A DNA stretch of 64,000 nt from Polyangiaceae bacterium (GTDB lineage: Bacteria; Myxococcota_A; Polyangia; Polyangiales; Polyangiaceae). Each line of letters begins with the position of its first letter. Positions within the stretch are counted from its first letter, which is position 1. The notes below the pieces were generated by a model. The model saw only the letters and a list, made by a program, of their open reading frames with translations. It had not been told where the DNA came from and ran no database searches. Positions 33,844-54,851 of the stretch are shown piece after piece. The position numbers were made by a program, and so were the translations under genes. The DNA lies in NCBI GenBank assembly GCA_023150915.1, contig JAKLKA010000005.1:1-64000 (forward strand), given 5' to 3'.

Positions 33844-34590
33844 CTACATCACCAACCCGCCGTCCACGTCGACGCAGCGGCCGTTGAAGTAGTCGCATTC
33901 GATCACGAATTTCACGGCCAGCCAGATGTCGTTCGGCACGCCGATGCGGCCCACCGGCACCGCTGCGACCAGGGCGTCGCGGGCCTTCTGGTGCATGCCC
34001 TGGGTCATCGGCGTCTCGATCATGCCGGGGGCGATGGCGCCCACCCGGATGCCGTAGCCGGCGAACTCGCGCGCCCAGGTCACGGTGTTGGCGGCGATCG
34101 CGGCCTTGGTGGCCACGTAGTTCGACTGCCCGCGGTTGCCGTGCCGCGACACGCTCGAGATGTTCACCACCACGCCGGGGCGGGTGCTGGCTTCGACCAT
34201 GGTCTTCACGAGCTCGCGGGTCATCACCGTGGCGCCGGTCAGGTTCACCGCCAAGACGCGGTTCCAGTCGTCCATGGGCAGCATGGTCAGCTTGCCGCTC
34301 TCGCGATCGCGCTTCACCAAGAGGCCATCGCGGATCACTCCGGCGTTGTTCACCAGCGCGTTCAGCCCGCCCAGCTCGCCGGCAGCCCAGCGGGTGAAGG
34401 CCACGCAGTCCTCTTCGTTCGAGACGTCCAGGCGGCGGCGCGCGATGCCCGGTGGCAGCTCGGCGAGGCCCGCCTCGTCCACGTCGCCGGCGGCGACCTT
34501 GGCGCCGGCGGCCGCCAGCTCCTTTGTGAAATACGCGCCCATGCCTCGGCCGGCGCCGGTGACGATCACCTTCAAGTCTTGCAGTTTCAT
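33844..34590 (-). CDS. SDR-family reductase, probable acetoacetyl-CoA reductase
   Basis: 248 residues. NAD(P)-binding TGAGRGMGAYF, NNAGV, then catalytic Ser in NISSVSRHG and the YVATKAA (Tyr-x3-Lys) pair place it in the short-chain dehydrogenase family, FabG/PhaB type. In this operon, downstream of a phasin and PhaC, it most likely supplies (R)-3-hydroxyacyl-CoA for PHA synthesis. A GAGGAG ribosome-binding site stands before the ATG at 34590, 13 bases from the PhaC stop. A role in fatty-acid synthesis cannot be excluded. Confidence 0.82.
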   Translation of the reverse strand: MKLQDLKVIVTGAGRGMGAYFTKELAAAGAKVAAGDVDEAGLAELPPGIARRRLDVSNEEDCVAFTRWAAGELGGLNALVNNAGVIRDGLLVKRDRESGKLTMLPMDDWNRVLAVNLTGATVMTRELVKTMVEASTRPGVVVNISSVSRHGNRGQSNYVATKAAIAANTVTWAREFAGYGIRVGAIAPGMIETPMTQGMHQKARDALVAAVPVGRIGVPNDIWLAVKFVIECDYFNGRCVDVDGGLVM

Positions 34591-34603: not shown

Positions 34604-35587
34604 TCAGTTGGAGAGCGCCCGACCGAACCACTCGGCGAGCTTCGGGTAAAGCTGTTTCGGGGCCGAGCCACCCACCACCGCGCCGACGTGACCGCCGGGG
34701 ATGACGAGCAAGCTCTTGTCCGTGGATCCGGACAGATCGTTCAGCGCTTGGGCGGCGGGCGGCGGGCAGATCACGTCCCGGTCGGTGACGACGGTCAGCA
34801 CCGGGCAGTGGATCTGCCCGAGATCCACCCGGCGTCCCGCGACGTGGTGCGTGCCTTTGGCCAGGGCGTTCGCCTGGTACAGATCGCGGATGTACTTGGC
34901 GTAGGCTGCGCCGGGGAACGGGATGTTGGCGCTGGACCACTCTTCCAGGGCCTGGAACGCCTCCATCCGCTGCTCGTCGCCCAGGCGATCGAAGAAGCTG
35001 AGCCACTTGCCGATCTGCGCCGTCGGCCGCAGCGCGACGAAGCCGCTCTGCATTTGCTCGGCGCTGACGTTGCCGGCGGCGGCGATGGCCGCCGGATCGA
35101 ACCAGCGCGGATCGACCATGTGGGCGAGCATGCCGCCCTCGGCGAAGTCGATGGGGCCCGCCAGGTTGACCAGCGCGGCCACCGATTCCGGCTCGAGCGC
35201 GGCGTGGATCGCGCTCAGCGTGCCGCCGATGCAGTAGCCCAGCAGGCCCACCCGGGGCGCGCCCGACTCGCGCTGCACGCGGCGCACCATGCGGCCCACG
35301 CGAGCGACGACCGCGTCCCACTCCAGGTAGCGGTCCTCGGACTCGGGAACGCCCCAGTCGAGGCAGTAGACGTCGAAGCCGGCATCCACCAGCGCCCGCG
35401 CCAGCGAAGCGCCGGGTCGCAGATCGAGCACGTACCAGCGGTTGATCAGCGACGGCACCAGCAAGAGCGGCGCGCGGCGGGGCCGCGACGCTGCGCCCGC
35501 CGCCGAGCGGAAGCGGTACAGCGCCGCGGTGCCTTCGCGAAACAGCGTGTCACGGGGGGTCGGGGCGAGCTCCACCATCTCACCCAC
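34604..35587 (-). CDS. phaC: Short PHA synthase (PhaC, class III-like)
   Basis: 327 residues. An alpha/beta-hydrolase fold with the PHA-synthase lipase-like box LLGYCIGGT (nucleophile Cys119 counted from the ATG at 35587), plus VPSLINRWYVLDL and the His of PGGHVGAVV. This is the short, two-subunit type that needs a PhaE- or phasin-like partner. It polymerises 3-hydroxyacyl-CoA on granule surfaces. The ATG overlaps the phasin stop by eight bases; MVELAP at 35578 would remove the overlap. A paralogue is encoded near 44.5 kb on the other strand. Confidence 0.88.
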   Translation of the reverse strand: MGEMVELAPTPRDTLFREGTAALYRFRSAAGAASRPRRAPLLLVPSLINRWYVLDLRPGASLARALVDAGFDVYCLDWGVPESEDRYLEWDAVVARVGRMVRRVQRESGAPRVGLLGYCIGGTLSAIHAALEPESVAALVNLAGPIDFAEGGMLAHMVDPRWFDPAAIAAAGNVSAEQMQSGFVALRPTAQIGKWLSFFDRLGDEQRMEAFQALEEWSSANIPFPGAAYAKYIRDLYQANALAKGTHHVAGRRVDLGQIHCPVLTVVTDRDVICPPPAAQALNDLSGSTDKSLLVIPGGHVGAVVGGSAPKQLYPKLAEWFGRALSN

Positions 35588-35849
35588 CCGTGCGCAGGCT
35601 TTCGCTGGTCTTCTTGACCAGCTCGAGGTTCAGCTTGCGCCACTCGTTCGAGAGCGTGAGCGCGTAGCTGAGCGATTCCTTCATCAGCTTGGCGCTCTCG
35701 TCGACGGCCTGCTGGGCGCGCTCGACGCCTTGGCCCTGGGCCTTGCCGAGCTGATCGCTCAGCTGCTCGATGCGCTCGACGTGCTCTTTGGCGGCGCGGG
35801 TCCAGAGGTCGAAGAACGCGTTGGGCTGGGTGAATCCGGGCATGAACAT
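35580..35849 (-). CDS. Phasin-like / PHA-synthase subunit protein
   Basis: 89 residues. Entirely helical and amphipathic (AFFDLWTRAAKEHVERIEQ, VERAQQAVDESAKLMKES, SYALTLSNEWRKLNLELVKK), as in phasins that coat PHA granules. Its position directly before phaC and behind a PhaR-type operator (87 bases upstream of the ATG) supports the call. ATGs at 35849 and 35843 are both possible. The longer in-frame extension upstream runs back into the TA cassette and is not used. Confidence 0.75.
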   Translation of the reverse strand: MFMPGFTQPNAFFDLWTRAAKEHVERIEQLSDQLGKAQGQGVERAQQAVDESAKLMKESLSYALTLSNEWRKLNLELVKKTSESLRTGG

Positions 35850-37510: not shown

Positions 37511-37562
37511 TCGAAGTGTTGCAACGCAACACGGTTCAACGCCGACGCGGCTTCTTTTCCAG
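37511..37562 (-). repeat. 3' end of phaR plus operator, functional copy B of the direct repeat
   Basis: Fifty-two bases containing the last eight codons and stop of phaR and the downstream TGTTGC-AAC-GCAACA palindrome at 37517-37531. The partner copy is at 35930-35980. The distance of 1581 bases equals the MqsRA-bearing insert plus one repeat. The copy preserves the phaR C-terminus. Confidence 0.85.
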
Positions 37563-38081
37563 CGAGCGCTTCAGTTCGTCCAGCTCGCGGCGCAGGCTGG
37601 CGAAGTCCTCGCTGGGCGCGCTGGGCTCGGGCTCGCGCCGCGCAGGAGGAGGCGGCGGCGGAGGCGGCGCCACGTCCCAGCTGCCCGGCTGCTGGGTGAA
37701 CAGCCGCGCGAGGGCGTTGCCTGCCGAGAAGGGCATCGTTGCAAACGGGAAGTAGGGGGACACCGCTTGCGCGCCCTGCTTGGCCGTCAGGTACAGCTCG
37801 AGCGTGGCGCTGACATATCGGCCGAAGAACTCACCCAGAGCGTCGTCTTGCATCCGGACCAGCTGGGTCAAGAGCGGCACCGGCAAGAGCTTGGCGGCCG
37901 GCCCCTCCAAGATCACCTGGGTCAGCGTGGCCTGGGTCAGGTCGTCGCCGGTCTTGGCGTCCACCACGCGCACGTCCGCGCCAGCTCGGATGCGCTCGGT
38001 CAGCTCGTCCAAGGTGATGTAGCGGCTCTCTTCGGTGTCGTAGAGCCGGCGGTTCGAATACTTCTTGATCACGAGCGGCAT
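37536..38081 (-). CDS. phaR: PHA synthesis repressor PhaR
   Basis: 181 residues. The N-terminal PHA-accumulation-regulator DNA-binding domain is unmistakable: IKKYSNRRLYDTEESRYITL then DELTERIRAGADVRVVDA, followed by a second helical PHB-binding-type region (LPVPLLTQLVRMQDDALGEFF). The C-terminus has a polyproline run and a basic tail. PhaR represses phasin and pha genes until PHA granules titrate it away. It diverges from the seven-gene operon; palindromes near both promoters fit autoregulation and control of that operon. Confidence 0.92.
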   Translation of the reverse strand: MPLVIKKYSNRRLYDTEESRYITLDELTERIRAGADVRVVDAKTGDDLTQATLTQVILEGPAAKLLPVPLLTQLVRMQDDALGEFFGRYVSATLELYLTAKQGAQAVSPYFPFATMPFSAGNALARLFTQQPGSWDVAPPPPPPPPARREPEPSAPSEDFASLRRELDELKRSLEKKPRRR

Positions 38082-38131: not shown

Positions 38132-38147
38132 TTGCGGCACCGCAACA
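38132..38147. promoter_or_regulatory. PhaR-type dyad in the phaR divergent promoter region
   Basis: TTGCGG-CA-CCGCAA is a perfect inverted repeat in the 100-base region between phaR and the divergent operon. It differs in spacing from the TGTTGC-N3-GCAACA sites but shares the TTGC/GCAA ends and a trailing GCAACA. Weak candidate. Confidence 0.4.
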
Positions 38148-38181: not shown

Positions 38182-39189
38182 ATGCGCAGGCCCAACATGG
38201 TGCGGTGCAACAAAATGCTGCCCTTGCTTATTCCGGTGCTCCTGGCGTTGGGGGCTTTGGGCTGCGAGGCCTCGAGCCCCGCCGACGAGTGCCACACCGG
38301 TTCCGACTGCCCGTCGGGCGCGTGCAACGACGGCCGCTGCGTGGCCGCGAGCGGCGGGGCGGCGGGCGCGGGTGGGGCTGCGGGGGGCGCCGCGGGTGCG
38401 GGAGGGGCAGCGGGCGCGGGCGCGGCCGGCGGCGTGGCAGGCGGTGGCGGGTCGGGCGGCACGGCGAGCGGCGGCTCGGGCGGCGGGTTCTGTTCGCCAA
38501 ACCACGACGGCGTGCTCGACAAGGCCGAGACGCCGCTGGCTGCGGGCCTGGCGGCGAAGTTCCTGGTCTCGGGTCCGGCCCAGATCCCGAGCGCCGGCGT
38601 GGCGCAGGGCGACGGCAGCCGGCTCTGGGACTTCAGCGCGGGCCTCAGCGGCGACCACCTGGTGCTGGTCGAGACGCAGAAGCTCGACGGCAAGTGGTTC
38701 GCCAGCAAGTTCCCCGGCGCCACCTACGCGGCGCGGCTGTCCGAGTCGAGCGATCTGCTCGGCGTGTTCGAGGTCGGGGCGACGGCGCTGGTGTTGCGGG
38801 GCGTGGTCTCGCCCGCGGACGGCGTGACCAAGACCGAGCTCACCTATGCCCCGCCGGTGGTGGTCCTCGATTTCCCGGTGAAAGAGGGCAAAACCTGGTC
38901 GACCGCCAGCACCGTGACCGGCTTCGCCCAGGGCGTGCTGGCCAACTACAGCGAGAGCTACCAGAGCCAGGTCGACGCCCACGGCACGCTGAAGGCGCCC
39001 TTCGGTGAGTTCCCGGTGCTGCGCACGCGCGTGGTGCTCACGCGCAAGATCGGGCTCGTGACCACCGTCGTCCGCAGCTACCTGTTCGGCGCCGAGTGTT
39101 TCGGCACGGTGGCCTCGTTCGTGGCGAAGGACAACGCCACCACCGCCGAGGTGAGCGAGGCCGCCGAGCTGCGGAGGCTGGCCCCGTGA
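38182..39189 (+). CDS. Surface lipoprotein, first gene of the PHA-linked operon
   Basis: 335 residues from the ATG at 38182, which has GGAG six bases upstream. The signal peptide ends in LGALGC. A short Cys-containing segment (ECHTGSDCPSGACNDGRC) and a Gly/Ala-rich linker follow, then a beta-rich domain of about 220 residues. That domain is paralogous to the lipoprotein at 41638: both begin CxPNxDG, share a GDGxxxWDF block and KW..S.FP, and end in AAELRR. Substrate unknown. Followed by a four-base overlap (GTGA) with the hydrolase. Confidence 0.75.
   Translation: MRRPNMVRCNKMLPLLIPVLLALGALGCEASSPADECHTGSDCPSGACNDGRCVAASGGAAGAGGAAGGAAGAGGAAGAGAAGGVAGGGGSGGTASGGSGGGFCSPNHDGVLDKAETPLAAGLAAKFLVSGPAQIPSAGVAQGDGSRLWDFSAGLSGDHLVLVETQKLDGKWFASKFPGATYAARLSESSDLLGVFEVGATALVLRGVVSPADGVTKTELTYAPPVVVLDFPVKEGKTWSTASTVTGFAQGVLANYSESYQSQVDAHGTLKAPFGEFPVLRTRVVLTRKIGLVTTVVRSYLFGAECFGTVASFVAKDNATTAEVSEAAELRRLAP
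38198..38212. promoter_or_regulatory. PhaR operator candidate at the start of the seven-gene operon
   Basis: TGGTGC-GGT-GCAACA matches TGTTGC-N3-GCAACA at all but one arm base. It lies just inside the first gene, 16 bases after the chosen ATG. A repressor bound here would block elongation. Confidence 0.5.
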
Positions 39190-40073
39190 AACGCGCGTCG
39201 CTCGGCTTGGCTGCCCTGGCCCTGGCCTGCGCGCCGGCGTTCCATGCCGGGCCGATGCCCGGGGAGCCGAAGGGCAGCTACGCGAGCGTCGCCGGCGCGC
39301 GGGTGCGCTTCGTCGACGAGGGCAAGGGCCCGGCGGTGGTGTTGCTGCACGGGTTCGCGTCGTCGCTCGAGACCTGGGAGACGGTGCGCCCCGCGCTGGT
39401 GCGCGACCACCGGGTGATCGCCCTGGATTTGAAGGGTTTCGGCTGGAGCGATCGACCCGAGGGCGACTACTCGCCGCGGGCCCAGGCCCAGCTGGTGCTG
39501 GCGCTGATGGACGCACGTGGCGTGAAGAGCGCCGCGGTGGTCGCGCACTCGTGGGGAGCATCGGTGGCGCTGCAGATGGCGCTCTTGGCGCCGGCTCGGG
39601 TCGAGCGGCTCGCGCTCTACGACGCCTGGGTCTACGAAGAGCAGCTCCCGACCACGTTCCACTGGGCGCGGAGCGAGGGCCTGGGCGAGGTGCTGTTCGG
39701 CGCGTTCTACGCCGAGCGCTCGGAGGAGAAGATCTCGCAGGCGTTCTACGACGAGCGCAACCTCAGCGAGCGCCTGATCGAAGACGTCGAACGCGCCCTG
39801 GAGCGACCCGGGACGGTGGCCGCGGCGCTGGCGGCCACGCGCGGCCAACGCTACGCCGAGGTCGAGGCGCGCTATCGCGAGATCGGGCAACCGACGCTGC
39901 TGCTCTGGGGGCGCGAAGACCGCGTCACGCCGCTGCCGATCGGCGAGCGCCTGAGCCGCGAGTTGAAGCGCGCGGAGCTTCGGATCTACCCGCGCACCGG
40001 CCACTTCCCCATGCTCGAGGCCTCCGCCGAGTCGACGCGCGATCTGGCTGAATTCCTGCGGAGCTCGCGATGA
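39186..40073 (+). CDS. Alpha/beta-hydrolase lipoprotein
   Basis: 295 residues from a GTG overlapping the previous stop. Signal peptide with lipobox LALAC. The alpha/beta-hydrolase core shows VVLLHGFASSLETW (oxyanion loop), LDLKGFGWSDRP, nucleophile elbow VVAHSWGAS (Ser in AHSWG), acid WGREDRVTP and catalytic His in TGHFPMLE. It should be an active esterase or lipase anchored on the cell envelope. In this operon, release of acyl groups from lipids or polyesters is a plausible role, inferred from the neighbours. Confidence 0.85.
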   Translation: MKRASLGLAALALACAPAFHAGPMPGEPKGSYASVAGARVRFVDEGKGPAVVLLHGFASSLETWETVRPALVRDHRVIALDLKGFGWSDRPEGDYSPRAQAQLVLALMDARGVKSAAVVAHSWGASVALQMALLAPARVERLALYDAWVYEEQLPTTFHWARSEGLGEVLFGAFYAERSEEKISQAFYDERNLSERLIEDVERALERPGTVAAALAATRGQRYAEVEARYREIGQPTLLLWGREDRVTPLPIGERLSRELKRAELRIYPRTGHFPMLEASAESTRDLAEFLRSSR

Positions 40074-41629
40074 AGCGGGTCGCGGTCGCGCTGCTCTGCT
40101 TGGCGTCGCAGGCCCGCGCCACGGGCTTCGCCGATCACGGTCGCGATCTGGGTGCCAAGCCCGAAGAACAGGTGCGGCTGGACGGTTACTTCCGCGTGCG
40201 CGCCGACGCGCTCTACAACCTGGATCTGGACCGCGGCCCCACGCCCTCGGGGGAGCTGCTCTATCCGGTGCCGCTCGGCAGCTCGAAGGGGCAGACCCTG
40301 ACCGGCGCCGACATGCGCCTGCGCACCGATCTGTCGATCTATGCCCCGGGTGGGATGATGGCGGTGAAGGCGCGGCTGGACGCGCTGGACAACGTGGTCC
40401 TGGGCAGCGCGCCCGAGGGCATTCCCTCCGCCAGCAGCACGCAGCGCACCGACGGGGAGACGGTCAGCGTGAAGCGGGTGTGGGGCGAGGCGCTGACGCC
40501 GTTCGGCGCCCTGGCCATCGGTCGCATGGGCAGCCACTGGGGCCTGGGCGTGCTGGCCAACGCCGGCGATTGCCTGGATTGCGACAGCGGCGACGCGGCC
40601 GATCGGATCGCCTTCGTGACGCCGCTTTTGGGGCATTTCTGGGCCATTGCTTACGATTTCTCGGCCACGGGCCCGTTCGTTCCGGACCGCTCCGGCAGCC
40701 GCTCGATCGACATCGCGCCGAGCGCCGCGGTGCACAGCGTGACCTTCGCGGTGCTCGCCTCCCGCACCGACGCGGCGCGGGCGCGACGCGCTGCTGCGGG
40801 CAAGCACACGCTGGAGTACGGCGCCTACGCGGCGCATCGCTGGCAAGACAAGGACGTGCCCGCCACCTACCTGCCCGTGGCCCAGCCGGTGGCGCTGAAC
40901 GATCAACAGGTCATGGCGCGCGGCTACCGTGCCACCGCGGCCGACCTCTGGACGCGCGTCAGCGGGCGCGGCTATCGCGTCGAGGGCGAGCTGGCGTTCA
41001 TGACGGCGCGGGTCGAGCAGCCGTCGCTGATCCCCGGCGTGCTGTTTCGCGACGCGGCCACCAGCCGGCAGCTGGGCGGCGCGCTCGAGAGCGAGGTCGG
41101 CGACGCTGCCGGCAGCTATCGTCTGGGGATGGACGCGGGCTACGCCAGCGGCGACTCCGCCCCCGGTTTCGGGGCATTTCCCGGGGTGAATCGCCGCGCG
41201 CCGGTGCCCGGCGATCTGGACGGCCCGCAGGCGCGCCCCCCCTACGATCTGACCGTGAACAACTTCCGCTTCCACCCTGACTATCGCGTCGACCGCATCT
41301 TGTTTCGCGAGATCATCGGCACCGTCACCGACGCGGTGTACGTGAAGCCGCACCTGCGCGGCGACCTGTTCCGCTTCGCCAGCGGCCGGCTCGAAGCGTC
41401 GATGTTCGCGGTGATGTCCTGGGCGGTGAACGCCGAGTCGGCCCCGGGGCAGAAGCGTTCGCTGGGCGTCGAGCTCGATCCGAGCCTGAGCTACCAGAGC
41501 CGCGACGGCTTCGTGCTCGCGCTCGAACAGGCCACGTTTCTGCCCGGCGCGGGACTGGACAACCCCGAGCTCGGGCTCCGAGCCAAGACCGCGCAGCTCT
41601 GGCGCGTCAGTGCCGCCTTCACGTTCTGA
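40070..41629 (+). CDS. Outer-membrane beta-barrel protein (TIGR04551-like)
   Basis: 519 residues with a Sec signal peptide (VALLCLASQARA-TG). The mature chain opens RLDGYFRVRADALYNLDLDRG, which resembles a myxobacterial family (TIGR04551), and is rich in amphipathic strands (GYRVEGELAFMTARVE, RLEASMFAVMSWAVN). It ends in a terminal Phe (VSAAFTF), the usual signal for outer-membrane insertion. Start overlaps the hydrolase stop by four bases. It lies between two paralogous lipoproteins, suggesting a complex. Transport of acyl compounds is inferred. Confidence 0.75.
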   Translation: MKRVAVALLCLASQARATGFADHGRDLGAKPEEQVRLDGYFRVRADALYNLDLDRGPTPSGELLYPVPLGSSKGQTLTGADMRLRTDLSIYAPGGMMAVKARLDALDNVVLGSAPEGIPSASSTQRTDGETVSVKRVWGEALTPFGALAIGRMGSHWGLGVLANAGDCLDCDSGDAADRIAFVTPLLGHFWAIAYDFSATGPFVPDRSGSRSIDIAPSAAVHSVTFAVLASRTDAARARRAAAGKHTLEYGAYAAHRWQDKDVPATYLPVAQPVALNDQQVMARGYRATAADLWTRVSGRGYRVEGELAFMTARVEQPSLIPGVLFRDAATSRQLGGALESEVGDAAGSYRLGMDAGYASGDSAPGFGAFPGVNRRAPVPGDLDGPQARPPYDLTVNNFRFHPDYRVDRILFREIIGTVTDAVYVKPHLRGDLFRFASGRLEASMFAVMSWAVNAESAPGQKRSLGVELDPSLSYQSRDGFVLALEQATFLPGAGLDNPELGLRAKTAQLWRVSAAFTF

Positions 41630-41637
41630 GGACCCGC

Positions 41638-42471
41638 ATGCGCCGTTTCACCGTCTTCGCCTTCGCCGTGCTCGCCGCCTGCAGCGACAACAAGACCCAG
41701 CCCCCGGGTCACGCGGGCTATCAGGGCGCGAGCCCCGAGCCCCTGGCCTGCGTGCCGAACCTGGACGGGCGCATCGACGCGAGCGAAGCGCGGCCCGCCA
41801 TCGGCGTTCCGATCTCGTATCTGGTTTCACCCGCCGGCAGCGAAAGACCGGTGGATCTGGCCGGGATCGACCTGGGCGACGGCCGCCTGAGCTGGGATTT
41901 CGGCACCGACTTCGCGGACGATCAAGAAGCCAAGATCGTGCCCGCCAAGGTCGCGGGGAAGTGGTACCAGGCCTCGTTCCCGCCGGACGCGTTCGTCACG
42001 CCGTTCGACGCGGCCGGCACCGTCGAGAACGTGCTGCGCCAGGACGACAGCGCGCTCTGGCTGCTCGGTGTCGCGTCGCGCGACGAGGCGCCGCTCGAGG
42101 GCAAGACGCTGCTGGTCTATGGCAAGCCGGTCGAGCTCTTGCGCTTCCCCATCGAGCCGGGCGTAAGCTTCGTGTCGAGCGGGACGATCCAGAACGGCAC
42201 GCTGCGCGGCCTGCCCTTCGCGGGCAAGGACACCTACGAGGTGAGCGTGGACGGCAAGGGTGAGGCGCTCTTGCCGTCGCTCGCGTTCACGCAGGTGCAC
42301 CGCGTGCGTACGCGCGTCACCGTGGCGCCTGCCGTCGGCGCCAGCACCACGCGCCGCCAGACCTCGCTGTTCTTCGAGTGCTTCGCCGAGGTGGTCCGCG
42401 CGACCAGCAAACCCGACGAGCCCGAGGCGAACTTCACCACCGCCGCCGAGCTTCGGCGCATCGGTTTCTGA
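41638..42471 (+). CDS. Surface lipoprotein, paralogue of the first operon gene
   Basis: 277 residues. Lipobox LAAC (Cys15). After a short linker the sequence [17 protein letters not shown] and the blocks [19 protein letters not shown] and AAELRRIGF align with the lipoprotein at 38182, so the two are paralogues without the Gly/Ala linker here. Both flank the barrel gene. Function unknown; a pair of accessory lipoproteins on the barrel is a reasonable model. Nine bases separate it from the barrel gene. Confidence 0.75.
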
Positions 42472-42489
42472 CACGAGAGAGGACGAGCG

Positions 42490-42771
42490 ATGAACCCCTG
42501 GGATATCTACAAGAAGGCCTTCAATGCCTGGGAAAACGCCACGGCGACCTACATGGAGCAGGTGCTGAAGAGCCCGCTCTTGCTCGAGCCCGCCGGCGCC
42601 TGGCTCAGCACCATGATGAAGGCCAAGGCCAAGGGCGACGAGCTGGCCGCCGGCTGGTGGGGCGGTCTGGGGCTACCGACCAAGCGCGACCAGGAGCGCA
42701 CGCTGCACAAGCTGAACCAGCTCGAGAGCAAGCTGCTCGATCTCGAAGAACGGCTCGCCGCCGACAAGTGA
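42490..42771 (+). CDS. PhaE/phasin-like PHA-synthase subunit
   Basis: 93 residues. Helical; the pattern of a PhaE/PhaM-type protein is visible in [40 protein letters not shown] and the C-terminal [22 protein letters not shown] coiled coil, where GLPT plus a leucine-rich coil is typical of PHA synthase-associated proteins. It probably activates or localises the PhaC encoded two genes on. Shorter than classical PhaE. Good ribosome-binding site GAGAGAGGAC upstream. Confidence 0.72.
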
Positions 42772-42776
42772 GTGCC

Positions 42777-44513
42777 ATGTTCGACATCACGCCCTACCTC
42801 GAGCTGAAGATCGCTCCTCGCGCGGTGTTCGACGCTTTGGACGAGCGCCGCGCCCGCCCGCGCTTCATGCTGCCCACCCCGAGCGGGGACTGGCAGGCGG
42901 TCACCTGGGGCGCCTACGCCGACGCGATCCGCAAGCTCGGGTGTGCGTTGGCGGCGATGGGCCTTTCACCGGGCGATCGGGCCGCGATCTATGCGCCGAA
43001 TCGCGTGGAGTGGATCGAGGCCGCGCTGGCCATCCAGGCCGCCGGGGGCGTGATGGTGCCGGTCTACCCGGCCTGCACCGCCGAGCAGACCGCGTACATC
43101 GTGGGGCACAGCGACGCCAAGGTGCTGTTCGTGGACACGGCGCCGCTGCTCTCGCGGGTGCTCGAGCGTTTCGGTGAGATGACCGCCCTCGAGCGCGTGA
43201 TCGTGCTCGACGACGCCCTCGACGTGAGCCAGGTCCTGGCCGAGCTGCGCGCGCAGGGCAAGGCCGTGCCGAGGGTGGCCGAGGTGGAAGAGCGCTTCCT
43301 GAGCTTCGGACGTGCGCTCAGCCTGGGCGCGGCGCGCGACGCCGAGGCGCCCGAGGCGTTCATGGCGCGCATGGACGACATCGAGCTCACGCAGACCGCG
43401 CTGATGCTCTACACCAGCGGCACCACCGGCAACCCCAAGGGCGTGCCGCTGAGCCACGCCAACGTGGCCGAGAACGGCCTCGACTGGCTGAAGTGCAACG
43501 CGCCGCTGATCGAAGAGGGCTTCGTCGATCTGCTCTGGCTGCCGATGAGCCACATCTTCGGCCTGGGCGAGGCGTGCCTGGGCAACACCCTGGGGTTCAC
43601 CACCTATCTCTCGGACCCAATGAAGGTGCTGGCGCACCTGCCCGAGGTGAAGCCCAACGTGTTCATGAGCGTGCCGGCCTACTGGGAGAAGCTCGCCACC
43701 GCGGCGATGAGCGAGACCGATCCCGACGCGCGGCGCGAGAAGCTGGCCAGCCTCACCGGCGGCCGGCTGAAGTTCTGCCTCTCGGGCGGCGCCGGCTTGA
43801 AGCGCGAGATCAAGCAGCTGTTCTACGAATGCGGCCTCTTGATCATCGAGGGCTACGGCCTGACCGAGTGCTCGCCCACGCTGACCTTGAATCGCCCCGA
43901 GGCGTTCCGCTTCGATTCGGTGGGCAAGCCCCTGCCGTCGGTGGAGCTCAGGCTGGCGGAAGACGGCGAGATCCTCGCCCGGGGGCCCAACGTGTTCGCC
44001 GGCTATCACAAAGATCCGGTGGCGACCCGCGAGGCCTTCACCGACGACGGCTGGTTCAAGACCGGCGACGTCGGCCGCTTCACCGAGGACGGCTTCTTGC
44101 AGATCGTCGATCGCAAGAAAGAGATCCTGGTGACCGCCGGCGGCAAGAACGTGCCGCCCGCGAACATCGAGCTTCGCTTCGCCGACGATCCGATCGTGAG
44201 CCACGCCATCGTGTACGGTGACGGCAAGAAGTACCTGGTCGCCGGGATCTGGCTCAACCCCGAGGCCACGGACGCCAGGCTCGCGGCCCTGGGCGTGGGG
44301 CCCGATGGGCGCGCCGCCGCCATCGACGAGCTGGTGAAGGCGAGCGTGGCGCGGGTGAACGAGCACCTGGCGAGCTTCGAGCAGATCAAACGCCATCGCG
44401 TGATGGATACCCCGCTCACCGTGGCGGGCGGCCTGCTCACCTCGACGTTGAAGCCGCGCCGCAAGCAGATCTACGCGGCGTTTTCCCGGGACTTCGAGGC
44501 GCTCTACGCATGA
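42777..44513 (+). CDS. AMP-forming acyl-CoA ligase
   Basis: 578 residues. Adenylation motifs are complete: [16 protein letters not shown] (A3), GYGLTECSP (A5), TGDVGRF and [17 protein letters not shown] (A7-A8), with a C-terminal catalytic Lys region ([20 protein letters not shown]). It resembles long-chain fatty-acyl-CoA ligases and should convert free acids to acyl-CoA for use by PhaC or beta-oxidation. The start at 42777 follows the PhaE-like stop by five bases; the end overlaps phaC by four bases. Confidence 0.9.
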
Positions 44514-45511
44514 TCCCGCTGGCGTCGCTGTTCGGTCGCCCGCCGCCGGCGGTGGGGCAGACGCCGTCGGACGTGGTGTTCGCCGAGAACAAGTGGCGCC
44601 TGCTCCGCTACCGCGCGTGGCACGAGGGCACGGCCTGGGCCACGCCGGTCTTGCTGGTGCCGTCGCTGATCAACCGCCACTACGTGCTCGACCTGCTGCC
44701 GGGCAAGAGCTTCGTCGAGTGGTTCGTAGCGCGCGGGCACGACGTGTTCTGCATCGACTGGGGCACGCCCGGCGACGAAGACCGATACCTGACCTTCGAC
44801 GACGTGTGCGATCGGTACCTCGGGCGCGCGCTCGAGCGCACCCGGCGCATCGCAGGCGCCCCGAAGGCCCACGTGCTCGGCTACTGCCTGGGCGGCACGC
44901 TGGCGGCGATCCACGCCAGCGTTCATCCTGAGCGCTTCGCCTCGCTCACCGCGCTGGCCGCGCCCATCGGTTTTCACGACGGGGGCCTCTTGAGCGCGTG
45001 GACGCGTTCGAAGGGCTTCGACGTCCAGGCGGTGGTGGCGGCCACCGGCAACGTGCCGTGGCAGCTGATGCAGTCGGCGTTTCACCTGCTCAGGCCGACG
45101 CTCACCCTGTCCAAGGCCGTGCACATGGCCGACAAGCTCTGGGACGACGAATTCATGAACGGCTTCCTGGCGCTCGAGACCTGGGGCAGCGACAACGTGT
45201 CGTTCCCCGGCGCGTGCTACCAGCGCTACGTGGACGAGCTTTACCGGAACAACGCGCTCGTGGCCGGGACGTTCACCCTCTCGGGCAAGCCGGCGCGGCT
45301 CGAGGCCATCACCTGCCCCACCCTGGCGGTCACCTTCCAGCACGACAACATCGTGCCGCCCGAGAGCGCTGCGGTGCTGCTCGAGCGCATCGGGTCGGCG
45401 GACAAGCACCGCATCCACCTCCCCGGCGGTCACGTCGGCGCGGTGGTCTCGAAGAAGGCCGCCCAGGGGCTCTGGCCGGCGATCGCTAAATTCTGGGCGG
45501 ATCGCGACTGA
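44510..45511 (+). CDS. phaC: Short PHA synthase (PhaC, class III-like), second copy
   Basis: 333 residues. Catalytic triad Cys126 in [10 protein letters not shown], Asp279 in HDNIVPP and His308 in GGHVGAVV. It shares [13 protein letters not shown] and [14 protein letters not shown] with the minus-strand PhaC (VPSLINRWYVLDL and ALEEWSSANIPFPG), so the two are paralogues. It is the last gene of the seven-gene operon, whose members overlap or lie a few bases apart. The operon ends in a strong hairpin nine bases after the stop. Confidence 0.9.
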
Positions 45512-45575: not shown

Positions 45576-46715
45576 GTGCCCCAGGCGCGCTACCTGCGAA
45601 CGACCCTCTCGAAGGTCCTCTCGGACCGCAAGATGGCCTTCATCGGGGGCCCGCGGCAGGTGGGCAAGACAACGCTGGCGCTCGGCTTCCTCGGCCCCCG
45701 CGCTAACGCGAAGCACCCCGCGTACTTCAACTGGGACGACCCCCGGGCAGCGGCGCGGCTTCGTCGGGTCGAGCTCCCCGCGAGCGAGCCGGTGCTGGTC
45801 TTCGACGAGATCCACAAGTACGCGCGGTGGCGCGGCCTTGTGAAGGGGATCTACGACGTCGAGAAGTCGGAGCGACAGATCGTGGTCACGGGCTCCGCAC
45901 GTCTGGACTACTACCGCAAAGGCGGTGACTCGCTGGTCGGCCGGTATCGGTACTTCCGGCTGCACCCGTTCTCGCTGCGGGAGCTCGGACCCAGAGCGTC
46001 CGCGGCCGACCTGGCGGCGTTGCTCCGCTTCGGGGGCTTTCCGGAGCCCTTGTTTCGCCAGGACGCGGCCGAGCACCGGATCTGGCAGCGCGACCGACTC
46101 TCCCGGGTCCTGCGAGAGGACCTGCGCGATCTCGAGCACGTCCGCGAGGTGTCGCTGGTGGAGCAGCTGGTGGACCTCTTGCCGCAGCGGGTGGGGTCGC
46201 CGCTGTCGGTGGCGAACCTGGCCGGCGATCTCCAGGTGGATCACAAGACGGTGGAGCGCTGGCTTCAGATCCTGGAGAATCTGTATGTCTGCTTCCGCGC
46301 AGCCCCGCTGGGCTTTTCTCGCGTCCGTGCGGTCAAGAAGGAGCGAAAGCTCTACCTCTGGGACTGGTCGGCGGTCCCCGAGCCGTGCCCGCGCTTCGAG
46401 AACCTGGTCGCGTGCCAGCTCCTCAAGTACTGCCACTTCGTCGAAGACACCCAAGGGCATCGCATGGAGCTTCGGTTTCTGCGTGACACCAATCGCCGCG
46501 AGGTCGACTTCGTGGTGCTTCGCGACGAGCGGCCCCTGTTCGCCGTGGAGTGCAAGGTCAGCGGCAAGCAGTCCGATCCGGCGCTGGCCTACTTCGCCGA
46601 GCGGGTCGGCGTGCCTCGGTTCTATCAGACCCACCTGGGCGACGAGCACCACGAACGCGGGCGCGTCACCGTGATCCCGTTCGCTCGCCTGTGTCAGGAG
46701 TTGGAATTGCCATGA
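45576..46715 (+). CDS. ATP-binding protein with DUF4143 domain
   Basis: 379 residues from a GTG. N-terminal AAA-like ATPase: Walker A GGPRQVGKTTLA, Walker B PVLVFDEIHKY, VVTGSARLD. The C-terminal DUF4143 part ends with a nuclease-like signature: REVDFVVLR then FAVECKVS (PD-(D/E)xK type). Such proteins occur widely as stand-alone, often mobile genes of unknown role, perhaps toxin-like or defence-related. The end overlaps the next lipoprotein start by four bases. Two palindromes lie upstream of the start. Confidence 0.85.
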   Translation: MPQARYLRTTLSKVLSDRKMAFIGGPRQVGKTTLALGFLGPRANAKHPAYFNWDDPRAAARLRRVELPASEPVLVFDEIHKYARWRGLVKGIYDVEKSERQIVVTGSARLDYYRKGGDSLVGRYRYFRLHPFSLRELGPRASAADLAALLRFGGFPEPLFRQDAAEHRIWQRDRLSRVLREDLRDLEHVREVSLVEQLVDLLPQRVGSPLSVANLAGDLQVDHKTVERWLQILENLYVCFRAAPLGFSRVRAVKKERKLYLWDWSAVPEPCPRFENLVACQLLKYCHFVEDTQGHRMELRFLRDTNRREVDFVVLRDERPLFAVECKVSGKQSDPALAYFAERVGVPRFYQTHLGDEHHERGRVTVIPFARLCQELELP

Positions 46716-48181
46716 TCCGCCGTGCCGCCTTGCTCATCGCGCTCTCGACCGTGGCCTGCGCGGGCGACGACGCGGCCGAGCCTCCGGACACCAACGCCCC
46801 CTGCAGTCGCCCCGCGCGGAAGGGCAGCCCCTTGGGTGAGCACTGCGGTCAGCTGATCGACGAGGCCGGGCGCGTGGTGCTGCTGCGCGGCGTGAACGCC
46901 CGGGTAGAGGGCCTGTTCGACGTGACCTTCGACGACGGGCGGAAGGCACTGGAAGAGATCCCGTCGTACAGCGCCGAGGACGCCCAGGCGATGCGCGACT
47001 GGGGCTTCGATTCGCTGCGCCTGCCCATCAACTGGAGCGGCATCGAGCCGACGAAAGACGGGGGCTTCGACCAGAAGTACCTGGATCGCGTCGAGCAGGT
47101 GCTGGACCTGTCGCACGCTGCGGGGCTGCGCGTGCTGCTCGACCTCCATCAAGACGCGTACAGCAAGGAGATCGGCGAAGACGGCGCGCCGCTCTGGGCC
47201 ATTGTCCCGCCCCCGACGAAGCTGCTCGAAGGGCCGCTGACGGATCTGGAAGACCGGCGGCTCAGCAAGCAGGTGCTGGACGCGTTCGACACCTTCTTCG
47301 GGGACAGCGCCGACGGCACGTTCTTGCGCGAGCGGTTCACCCAGATGGCCGTCCACGTGATGCAGCGCTTCGGCGATCATCCGGCGGTGATTGGGCTCGA
47401 GATCTTCAACGAGCCCATCGCCACCATCGAGGGCATCGACCGGCTGAACGCCGCCGCCTACGCGGCGATCCGCGGCGCGGCCCCGAAGAAGCTGTACTTG
47501 TTCGAGCCGTCGTCCACGCGCAACGTGCTCGACACCGCGCCTCTGCCCGAAGCGCCGCTCGGGCCGATGACCGGGTACGCGCCGCACGTGTACACGTTGG
47601 CCTTCGTCAGCACCAACGCGCAGAAGCAGGCCATGACCAAGGCGACGCTGCGCACCTCGAACGAGAACGCGCGACTCGAGGCCGACGCCTGGCAAGCGCC
47701 GCTGGTGATCACCGAGTGGGGCTTCGATCCGAACGCCATCAAGGCCGGCGAGTACTTCACCTGGCAGAGCGAGTTGCAAGACGAGTACGGGGCATCGTCG
47801 TTCTTCTGGGTGTGGAAGGAGCGGTCGCAAGGCAACTGGGGCTGCTTCGATTTCGATCCCGCCACGCAGAAGTTCAGCGAGCGCACGCCGCTGAAGCAAG
47901 CGCTCGGGCGCGTGCGGCCGATGGCGGTGGCGGGCTGGCCGACCCGGAGCGCTTTCGATCGCAAGACCGGGGTGTTCGAGCTCGAGCTCGACGGCAACCC
48001 CAGCGTGCGCGAGCCGCATCGCATCGCGGTGGCGCCCGCCCTCGGCGCGCCCAGCGCCGCGGAGTGCGACGATCAGCCCATCGAGTGGGACAGCGCCGAA
48101 CACGGAGAAATCAGGCTGCGCTGTGGGCAAGGCGACAGCGGGCACCACCGCTTGCGCGTGCGGGTGCCGCCGGCGCCGTGA
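46712..48181 (+). CDS. Endoglycoceramidase-like GH5 lipoprotein
   Basis: 489 residues. Lipobox STVAC (Cys16). A GH5 barrel follows with RGVNARVEG, the LLDLHQDAYSKEIGEDGAPLW-type region seen in endoglycosylceramidases, acid/base Glu234 in IFNEP and nucleophile Glu335 in ITEWGF. The last ~100 residues form a beta-sandwich. Endoglycoceramidases release the glycan from glycosphingolipids, leaving ceramide, which would suit the ceramidase-like lipoprotein at 23.0-24.9 kb. Substrate remains to be proven; other GH5 activities are possible. Confidence 0.8.
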   Translation: MIRRAALLIALSTVACAGDDAAEPPDTNAPCSRPARKGSPLGEHCGQLIDEAGRVVLLRGVNARVEGLFDVTFDDGRKALEEIPSYSAEDAQAMRDWGFDSLRLPINWSGIEPTKDGGFDQKYLDRVEQVLDLSHAAGLRVLLDLHQDAYSKEIGEDGAPLWAIVPPPTKLLEGPLTDLEDRRLSKQVLDAFDTFFGDSADGTFLRERFTQMAVHVMQRFGDHPAVIGLEIFNEPIATIEGIDRLNAAAYAAIRGAAPKKLYLFEPSSTRNVLDTAPLPEAPLGPMTGYAPHVYTLAFVSTNAQKQAMTKATLRTSNENARLEADAWQAPLVITEWGFDPNAIKAGEYFTWQSELQDEYGASSFFWVWKERSQGNWGCFDFDPATQKFSERTPLKQALGRVRPMAVAGWPTRSAFDRKTGVFELELDGNPSVREPHRIAVAPALGAPSAAECDDQPIEWDSAEHGEIRLRCGQGDSGHHRLRVRVPPAP

Positions 48182-53627: not shown

Positions 53628-54851
53628 ATGGGACGCATCCGAGAGGTGGCTGATGCGCTCTGGTCCGGAAGCCAGAGCACCGACGGCCTGCAACCGGTTT
53701 CGCTCATCCTTGGCCTGGAAGAAATGCAGCCGGGCCTGGCCTTCGTCTCGAGCTTCGGCAACGTGATCGCGTTTCGCTCGTCCGAGGGCATGGCGCTGAT
53801 CGACACCGGCGGCTTTTTCATGGCCGGCCAGAACCACGCCACGCTCCGCGAGTGGTGCGACGCGCCGCTCAGCACCGCCATCTACACCCACGGTCACGTG
53901 GACCACGCCTTCGGCGTGCCGCCCTTCGAGGCGGAAGGGCGCGGGCGGGTCGAGGTGATCGCCCACGAGGCGGTGAAAGACCGCTTCGATCGTTACCAGC
54001 TCACCGCAGGCTACAACCGCGTGATCAACGGCCGGCAGTTCGGCGTGGCGGCCTGGCCCAGCGAGTACCGCTACCCGGATCGCACCTATCGCGATCGGCT
54101 GGATTTGCAGGTGGGCGGCGAGGCGGTCGAGCTTCATCACGCGCGGGGCGAGACCGACGACCACACCTGGGTGTGGTTGCCGCAGCGCAAGGTGCTGTGC
54201 ACTGGCGACCTGTTCATCTGGGCCTCGCCCAACTGTGGCAACCCGCAGAAGGTGCAGCGCTTCCCCCGCGAGTGGGCGGCCGCGCTCAGAACCATGTCGG
54301 CGCTGGGCGCCGAGTTGCTGTTGCCCGGGCACGGCCCGCCCATCGAGGGCAAAGACCGGGTCGAGCAGGCGCTGTCCGAAACCGCCGAGCTCCTGGAATT
54401 CCTGGTCGATGCCACCCTTCAGCGCATGAACGCCGGCAAGCGTCTGAACGCCATCTTGGCCGAGGTGAAGGCGCCGGCGCACCTCTTGGCGCGGCCCTAC
54501 TTGCGACCGGTCTACGACGAGCCCGAGTTCATCGTGCGGAACCTGTGGCGGCTGTACGGTGGGTGGTGGGACGGCAACCCAGCCCAGCTGAAGCCCGCCC
54601 CCGAGGCGGCCGTGGCCGGCGAGATCGCCGCGCTGGCCGGCGGCGCCCACGCATTGGTTTCGCGGGCCGCGGCACTGGCCGATGGCGGAGAGCTGGCCCT
54701 TGCCACGCACCTGATCGAGCTCGCGTTCGCCGCCGCCCCCGACGACCCCGAGGCCCGCCGGGTGCGCGCGCGCATCTATTCGGCTCGCTCCGAGGCCGAG
54801 TCGAGCTTGATGGCCAAGAACATCTTTCGCGCCGCCGCCGACGAGAGCTGA
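53628..54851 (+). CDS. MBL-fold hydrolase, alkyl-sulfatase-like
   Basis: 407 residues. Metallo-beta-lactamase motif YTHGHVDHAFG (His88, His90, Asp92, His93), second-site residues in ARGETDDHTWVW and the His of LLLPGHGPP. The ~130-residue C-terminal part with LWRLYGGWWDGNPAQLKP is the alkyl sulfatase dimerisation domain, as in SdsA/BDS1-type enzymes, but the SCP2-like third domain is missing. Substrate could be an alkyl sulfate or another ester. Placed in an operon with rph. Confidence 0.85.
   Translation: MGRIREVADALWSGSQSTDGLQPVSLILGLEEMQPGLAFVSSFGNVIAFRSSEGMALIDTGGFFMAGQNHATLREWCDAPLSTAIYTHGHVDHAFGVPPFEAEGRGRVEVIAHEAVKDRFDRYQLTAGYNRVINGRQFGVAAWPSEYRYPDRTYRDRLDLQVGGEAVELHHARGETDDHTWVWLPQRKVLCTGDLFIWASPNCGNPQKVQRFPREWAAALRTMSALGAELLLPGHGPPIEGKDRVEQALSETAELLEFLVDATLQRMNAGKRLNAILAEVKAPAHLLARPYLRPVYDEPEFIVRNLWRLYGGWWDGNPAQLKPAPEAAVAGEIAALAGGAHALVSRAAALADGGELALATHLIELAFAAAPDDPEARRVRARIYSARSEAESSLMAKNIFRAAADES

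Follow-up and report, generated by a model that had tools for sequence, protein, structure and literature searches.

Why would a bacterium encode putative surface lipoproteins, a lipid-anchored hydrolase and an outer-membrane channel in the same operon as a polyhydroxyalkanoate (PHA) synthase? This question is raised by an operon of a Polyangiaceae bacterium (assembly GCA_023150915.1), which occupies 38182-45511 on the plus strand of the stretch that we analyzed. This stretch, called the window below, is 64,000 nucleotides long (contig JAKLKA010000005.1, positions 1-64,000). An earlier annotation made from the letters of the DNA (the sequence-only reading) had proposed that the operon forms a route from the outside of the cell to storage. 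We found that its envelope genes and PHA genes are one conserved unit in several classes of the phylum, and that the operon is one arm of a divergent PHA locus. We give about an even chance to the view that the locus is a module for uptake and storage controlled by PhaR, a view in which we infer the substrate and the inward direction.

Layout of the operon

The operon consists of seven genes in the order LP1-HYD-BAR-LP2-PhaE-like-ligase-PhaC. LP1 (38182-39189) encodes a lipoprotein in which a Cys-rich N-terminus and a Gly/Ala linker precede the LP domain, and the lipobox is present in 35 of 36 orthologues. HYD (39186-40073) is a lipoprotein alpha/beta hydrolase (PF00561, 107 bits). BAR (40070-41629), modeled as an 18-strand outer-membrane channel, belongs to a PHA-linked clade of TIGR04551 (353.8 bits, cut-off 300). 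LP2 (41638-42471) is a second lipoprotein. The remaining genes encode a PhaE-like protein of 93 amino acids (42490-42771), an AMP-forming, FadD-like acyl-CoA ligase (42777-44513; PF00501, 238 bits) and PhaC, a class III-like PHA synthase of 333 amino acids (44510-45511).

Overlaps of 4 bp join LP1 to HYD (GTGA), HYD to BAR (ATGA) and the ligase to PhaC (ATGA). The other genes are separated by 8 bp (BAR/LP2), 18 bp (LP2/PhaE-like) and 5 bp (PhaE-like/ligase). The sequence-only reading was therefore right about the positions, the strand and the tight joining of the seven genes, with no gap above 18 bp. It also correctly saw LP1 and LP2 as paralogues (32% identity, E 6e-30), an intact Ser-Asp-His set in HYD (Ser122-Asp245-His273, with lipobox Cys15) and a barrel ending in Phe (BAR ends in AAFTF). 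What it had overlooked was the divergent phaR, a minus-strand pair of phaE-like and phaC genes, a FabG-like reductase gene and a PhaR box between phaR and LP1.

Envelope and PHA genes form one unit

Profile searches in 115 genomes of the order separate the genomes cleanly. A profile of the BAR clade reaches 645 bits or more in 45 genomes and does not exceed 259 bits in any of the other 70. HYD occurs in exactly those 45 genomes, as does the LP family with at least two copies each, and both are absent from the remaining 70. Of the 45 genomes with BAR, 39 have the operon-type PhaC (at least 495 bits), vs. 4 of the 70 others (Fisher p 1e-19, a statistic that ignores shared ancestry). The six genomes with BAR that lack this PhaC are mostly fragmented assemblies.

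Within the order, f1, f3, f5, f7 and f8 share this gene order, which also occurs in several other classes. Of 282 genomes from across the phylum, 58 have the LP family, again in several classes, and the loci that we fetched read LP1-HYD-BAR-LP2-PhaE-ligase-PhaC with a divergent phaR. In a scan of 84,980 species, nearly all of the best 80 matches are labeled Myxococcota, Deltaproteobacteria or simply “bacterium”, which leaves room for occurrences in other phyla beyond these 80.

We collected 98 non-redundant loci, 59 of which have at least 5.5 kb on both sides of the barrel gene. A PHA synthase lies within 10 kb of the barrel in 54 of these 59 flanked loci, phaR is present in 53, and 57 have one or the other. 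Apart from the reductase discussed below, other neighboring gene families each recur in 13 of the 59 at most, which marks the edges of the unit.

The linkage has survived at least four arrangements. In family f6, LP1-HYD-BAR-LP2 follows phaR-phaE2-phaC2 on the other arm, and PhaE-ligase-PhaC is still divergent. Three loci (L112, L114, L116) read phaC-phaR-phaC-ligase-LP1-HYD-BAR-LP2, and three others (L159, L164, L165) have three LP domains followed by HYD-BAR-LP2-PhaE-PhaC-ligase. The conserved order, the linkage in 54 of 59 loci and its persistence after rearrangement rule out a chance neighborhood. The order of the whole operon is thus conserved among relatives, and the envelope part is not widespread without PHA genes, since the PHA synthase is retained in 39 of the 45 genomes and in 54 of the 59 loci. 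Both points bear out the grouping of these genes in the sequence-only reading.

Two near-closed genomes (G012 and G030, loci L181 and L182) retain phaR divergent from PhaE-ligase-PhaC, and the envelope block is missing from exactly the gap between phaR and phaE. Because these genomes cleanly lack the block and keep the PHA genes, the block is an add-on to PHA synthesis. Together, the distribution and the rearrangements imply a largely one-way dependence of the envelope block on the PHA genes. The two loci (L181:7115-9466 and L182:9573-11924) belong to genomes of 10-11 Mb with a further phaC-like gene behind, and could serve as natural deletion strains for comparison.

A divergent arm and a predicted PhaR operator

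The gene for the PHA-responsive regulator PhaR (37536-38081, minus strand) lies 100 bp upstream of the operon and is divergent from it. It scores 94.1 bits with PF07879 (cut-off 25) and 98.8 bits with TIGR01848 (cut-off 109.45). Further along the minus strand are PE2 (35580-35849), a small PhaE/phasin-like protein of 89 amino acids that exceeds no family cut-off and precedes phaC2 in relatives too, and PC2 (34604-35587), a second, class III-like PhaC (TIGR01836 262 bits, cut-off 365; PhaC_N above cut-off). This arm ends with a FabG-like short-chain 3-ketoacyl reductase (33847-34590, minus strand; PRK08217 261.8 bits, cut-off 298; TIGR01829 143.5 bits), and 21 of about 59 loci have a homologue of this reductase in the cluster. 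Given these four minus-strand genes, the operon is one arm of a phaR-centered divergent PHA locus.

An MqsR/MqsA-type toxin-antitoxin pair (PF15723, PF15731; 35992-36880, minus strand) lies within the stretch between phaR and phaE2. This stretch spans 1.7 kb in the window and about 110 bp in two relatives of the same genus (L033, L034). Given the short gap in these relatives, the pair appears to have been inserted into the phaR arm recently.

A predicted operator resembling a PhaR box, TGCGGCACCGCAA, is located at 38133-38145 (plus strand). It has one mismatch to TG[N]TGC[N]3GCAA, the binding consensus of the PhaR homologue PhbF (PMC3206438); CTGC[N]3GCAG is a related consensus from Rhodobacter. 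In the window, we had first noticed the inverted repeat TTGCGGCACCGCAA and tried a motif of our own, and then applied the published PhbF consensus unaltered. Among 53 non-redundant intergenic regions divergent from phaR, 32 have a perfect box and 50 have one with no more than a single mismatch. The expected numbers are 0.3 and 5.2 in Markov-resampled sequences, and 1.3 and 5.9 at random places, and shuffled motifs gave a mean of 1.4 and a maximum of 5. A second match in the window, at 54177, is inside a coding region, and we regard it as chance.

Since phaR and the operon share the intergenic region, the box may serve phaR alone. However, boxes also occur at most 260 bp upstream of LP1 in seven loci where LP1 has moved away from phaR (L042, L059, L093, L160, L166, L178, L186). 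For this reason, control of the operon by PhaR is well supported at the sequence level. Loci of the f6 type, in which the block follows phaR on one strand, mostly have no box upstream of LP1.

A common regulator would not need a common flux. PhaR could co-regulate the envelope genes for a separate purpose, such as adapting the envelope of a cell that is filling with granules. PhaR regulons elsewhere do include genes for membrane transport and exopolysaccharides (PMC12542648), and four genomes have the PHA half but not the envelope half. However, the gene overlaps, the fixed order up to the ligase and PhaC across classes, and the linkage that outlasts rearrangement are more than a shared regulator needs. 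In addition, the ligase and the permeases described next offer a simple flux. We therefore consider co-regulation without flux to be improbable.

Permeases in related loci

About 20 relatives have an inner-membrane transporter in the cluster, which belongs either to the major facilitator superfamily (MFS) or to the solute:sodium symporter (SSS) family, and never to both. In seven loci, the operon starts with the MFS gene, which lies between phaR and LP1 (L043, L052, L056, L079, L081, L162 and L100, where the contig stops inside it). An SSS gene is in the cluster of thirteen loci; it is within the operon in L059, L186, L187 and L091, and immediately behind PhaC in L163 and L170. The best subfamily matches, all below cut-off, are organic-acid carriers for the MFS proteins and the pantothenate/proline type for the SSS proteins. 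Interchangeable permeases at one locus favor a route for a solute over mere co-regulation.

A predicted 18-strand channel and two lipoproteins

BAR has no Pfam match at E<=1, which includes the FadL families, and no significant sequence match in the PDB even with a profile search. Its AlphaFold2 model (72 sequences; predicted local distance difference test score, pLDDT, 91.4; predicted template-modeling score 0.88) is a barrel of 18 strands, as counted from the DSSP string with the kinked strand 464-477 joined. Comparisons with VIA-align and Foldseek agree. The best matches are AlgE (Z 26.5, 359 aligned residues, root-mean-square deviation 4.4), Campylobacter MOMP (Z 25.6) and OccK/OccD/OprD (Z 22-24, 316-340 aligned, deviation 3.6-4.4).

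The sequence-only reading had suggested that structure prediction might reveal a FadL-like channel. The model does not support this idea. A FadL channel is expected to have 14 strands and an N-terminal hatch, but BAR has 18 strands, its N-terminus is not folded as a hatch and its best matches lie elsewhere. FadL is also not among the VIA-align matches listed for BAR, which by itself excludes nothing.

In the model, strand alternation places the invariant residues Arg 42, 44, 83, 85, 152, 179, 257 and 284 toward the lumen. Occ channels owe their preference for carboxylates to a basic ladder (PMC3260308), and the Arg row suggests that BAR might likewise select carboxylates. We say only that this is suggested, because the lumen arginines are found family-wide and are balanced by acidic residues.

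The PHA link does not extend to TIGR04551 as a whole, because members in Myxococcia adjoin lysA-dapA-dapB without LP, HYD or PHA genes. A long TIGR04551 barrel is common there (L122-L150; e.g., L134:9965-11527 and L127:10025-11545), and its conserved pairing places a porin-like channel beside genes of lysine/diaminopimelate biosynthesis.

LP1, LP2 and HYD have the sequence features of outer-membrane lipoproteins, namely a lipobox Cys and no inner-membrane retention mark. The lipobox Cys is found in all 38 HYD rows and all 62 LP2/LP1 rows of the alignments. Lys at +2, which marks lipoproteins of the inner membrane in M. xanthus (PMC3222651), occurs in no HYD, LP1 or LP2 orthologue that we checked. 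The LP domain of both lipoproteins has a conserved motif resembling half an EF hand (C-x-P-N-x-D-G-x-I-D-x-x-E), directly after a conserved Cys. This motif is a possible calcium site, judging from a weak match to EF-hand/lanmodulin profiles (E 0.4).

A sequence search of the PDB with the lipoproteins gave no significant match. The AlphaFold2 model of LP2 (pLDDT 92.9) resembles the YmcC-like fold: in VIA-align, it matches Bacteroidales lipoproteins of this fold (Z 10.0 and 9.6) and YmcC itself (Z 7.6), although such Z values are close to those of chance matches. There is a weak likeness to LmcA (Z 6.1) and EPDR1 (Z 5.1), and Foldseek found nothing under E 0.001.

These folds raise the prospect of an outward route, in which the channel and lipoproteins would carry PHA-derived oligomers or a different polymer out of the cell, or deposit it in the envelope, alongside PHA synthesis. 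AlgE, the best fold match of BAR, is an exporter, and YmcC/GfcB, which the LP fold resembles, presumably come from capsule-export operons. On the other hand, the operon encodes a CoA ligase, which activates free acids so that the cell can use them internally, the transporters that join the cluster are of the SSS/MFS symporter type, and the neighborhoods contain no recurrent export ATPase, OPX protein or polymer-modifying enzyme. We regard an outward route as very improbable.

The hydrolase and the PHA enzymes

Ser122, Asp245 and His273 of HYD, and its lipid-anchor Cys15, are invariant in 38 orthologues. In a profile search of the PDB, the PHB depolymerase 8ynv is among the best matches (E 1e-33), ranked behind meta-cleavage hydrolases. 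The profile also matches 6i8w, an alpha/beta hydrolase structure that we take to be the phospholipase PlaF.

The triad of PhaC (Cys126-Asp279-His308) is invariant across 19 orthologues, and PhaC matches PHA synthase structures with E 4e-32. The protein exceeds the cut-off of PhaC_N and is a short form without the long N-terminal region, agreeing with class III in size and triad. Its score with TIGR01836 (262.2 bits) does not reach the cut-off of 365.3, but is nonetheless the best among the class models. The sequence-only reading had predicted a PhaE-like subunit. The similarity to PhaE covers only the last ~75 positions of PhaE (model positions 233-307 of 311) and is below the curated cut-off (PF09712, 19.5 bits, cut-off 25.7). 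The 93-amino-acid protein, which belongs to a conserved family, is not a full-length PhaE partner of about 40 kDa.

The ligase is nearest to fatty-acid ligases, which leads to another explanation, namely lipid scavenging. HYD would be a lipase or phospholipase acting on lipids of prey or of the cell's own envelope, LP1 and LP2 would bind fatty acids, and after their import the FadD-like ligase would activate them for beta-oxidation and storage as PHA. Many Myxococcota are predators, and the match of HYD to 6i8w is in line with this explanation, as is the resemblance of the LP fold to LmcA and EPDR1, which we assume to be lipid-binding. However, those two matches are below a reliable Z, the 18-strand channel matches channels for hydrophilic substrates (AlgE, MOMP, Occ) rather than FadL, and the permeases of the cluster are SSS or organic-acid-like MFS proteins. 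We consider lipid scavenging unlikely.

A proposed route for captured acids

Uptake and storage under PhaR could proceed as follows. At the outer membrane, the lipid-anchored HYD would cleave an ester, either a polyester such as a PHA oligomer or an acyl ester. LP1 and LP2 might bind the ester or the released substrate and pass it to the channel, and BAR would let a small carboxylate into the periplasm. An MFS or SSS permease would import the acid; some relatives encode one within the cluster, and the genome of the window presumably does so elsewhere. The ligase would then form the CoA thioester of the acid. PhaC could polymerize the CoA ester directly if it is a 3-hydroxy acid, whereas other acids would first undergo beta-oxidation and FabG-type reduction. 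Both arms would be switched by PhaR as PHA granules titrate it, and PHA yield would depend on the envelope genes.

The substrate is most likely a 3-hydroxyalkanoate or a short hydroxy or carboxylic acid rather than a long-chain fatty acid, because small acids better fit the channel and the permease types. Fatty acids are a possible substrate because the ligase is FadD-like. A salvage of polyester into polyester, in which PHA oligomers outside the cell or from prey are cut at the surface, and 3-hydroxyacids are imported and re-polymerized, bypassing central metabolism, is conceivable but rather doubtful.

Several observations weigh against uptake and storage. The ligase is closer to long-chain FadD enzymes than to any model of a 3-hydroxyacid ligase (281 bits with the FadD11 model, cut-off 950), and HYD shows no specific closeness to PHA depolymerases (72 bits with the nPHAscl model, cut-off 300). 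The conserved lumen arginines of BAR are shared by TIGR04551 members that have no PHA link, and acidic lumen residues are about as numerous (18 vs. 20). The cluster in the window has no linked permease. Four genomes have the operon PhaC but not the envelope genes, and a few loci have envelope genes but no adjacent phaC (L172, L179, L180). In G022 (L179), for example, the contig that carries the envelope block is long, and PhaE-ligase-PhaC is not found near the block.

In two genomes, G058 (L180) and G061 (L071), PhaE and the ligase are at their usual place and no PhaC was detected behind the ligase; a close relative (L047) has PhaC. It is possible that PhaC was lost or replaced in L180 and L071.

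The proposal of the sequence-only reading is thus retained in part. Strong functional coupling in one conserved unit supports a route from outside to storage, and the PhaR-type operator and the permeases in about 20 relatives fit its inward part. By contrast, fatty acids moving through a FadL-like channel are unsupported.

Neighboring features

Downstream of the operon, an AAA_14/DUF4143 ATPase (45576-46715) is followed by a GH5 protein (46703-48181, plus strand), which has a GH5 C-terminal domain and a lipoprotein-like signal at its start. No homologues of either recur near the operon in the neighbor clusters of relatives. An Rfam scan of the window gave no match.

Relation to known systems

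The sequence-only reading knew of no described uptake-to-PHA operon of this form, and our search agrees. In the open-licence literature on TIGR04551, on myxobacterial PHA and on PHA operons with porins, lipoproteins or ligases, we found no description of an envelope block of hydrolase, lipoproteins and channel coupled to a PHA synthase. Studies of PHA usually view its synthesis as an internal overflow of carbon. A phylum-wide locus that links a surface hydrolase, lipoproteins and a dedicated channel with the synthase, probably under the control of PhaR, points to direct storage of captured acids in part of this phylum. Such storage would bear on predation, on polyester turnover in soil and water, and on the production of bioplastics from esters. 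The locus also offers a testable role for two uncharacterized families, the LP family and the TIGR04551 clade.

The PHA half resembles a class III phaE-phaC operon in its short PhaC with a Cys-Asp-His triad, the PhaE-like gene in front and the nearby phaR. It differs in that PhaE is cut to a C-terminal segment of 93 amino acids, the ligase lies between phaE and phaC, four envelope genes precede them, and scores are below the curated class III cut-offs. A protein of the PhaR family and a TGC-N3-GCA operator are shared with the PhaR-regulated phasin and PHA genes of Ralstonia, Rhodobacter and Herbaspirillum. Here, however, the operator precedes a divergent envelope/PHA operon, not just phasin and depolymerase genes. 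BAR shares the 18-strand fold and lumen arginines with the Occ/OprD channels and AlgE (Z 22-26 over about 320-360 residues), but it has no sequence-family match to them, is a member of TIGR04551 and is encoded in an operon for PHA synthesis.

The whole locus is reminiscent of polysaccharide utilization loci, which likewise have lipoproteins, a lipoprotein hydrolase, an outer-membrane channel, an inner-membrane permease (here, in relatives) and a dedicated regulator. In place of glycosidases and a TonB-dependent SusC, this locus has an esterase-type hydrolase and a porin-type channel, and its product would go to a CoA ligase and a polyester synthase. All of the enzyme types are known. The coupling of the envelope block to a PHA synthase, for which the open-licence papers searched have no description, joins the logic of a polysaccharide utilization locus to an operon for a storage polymer.

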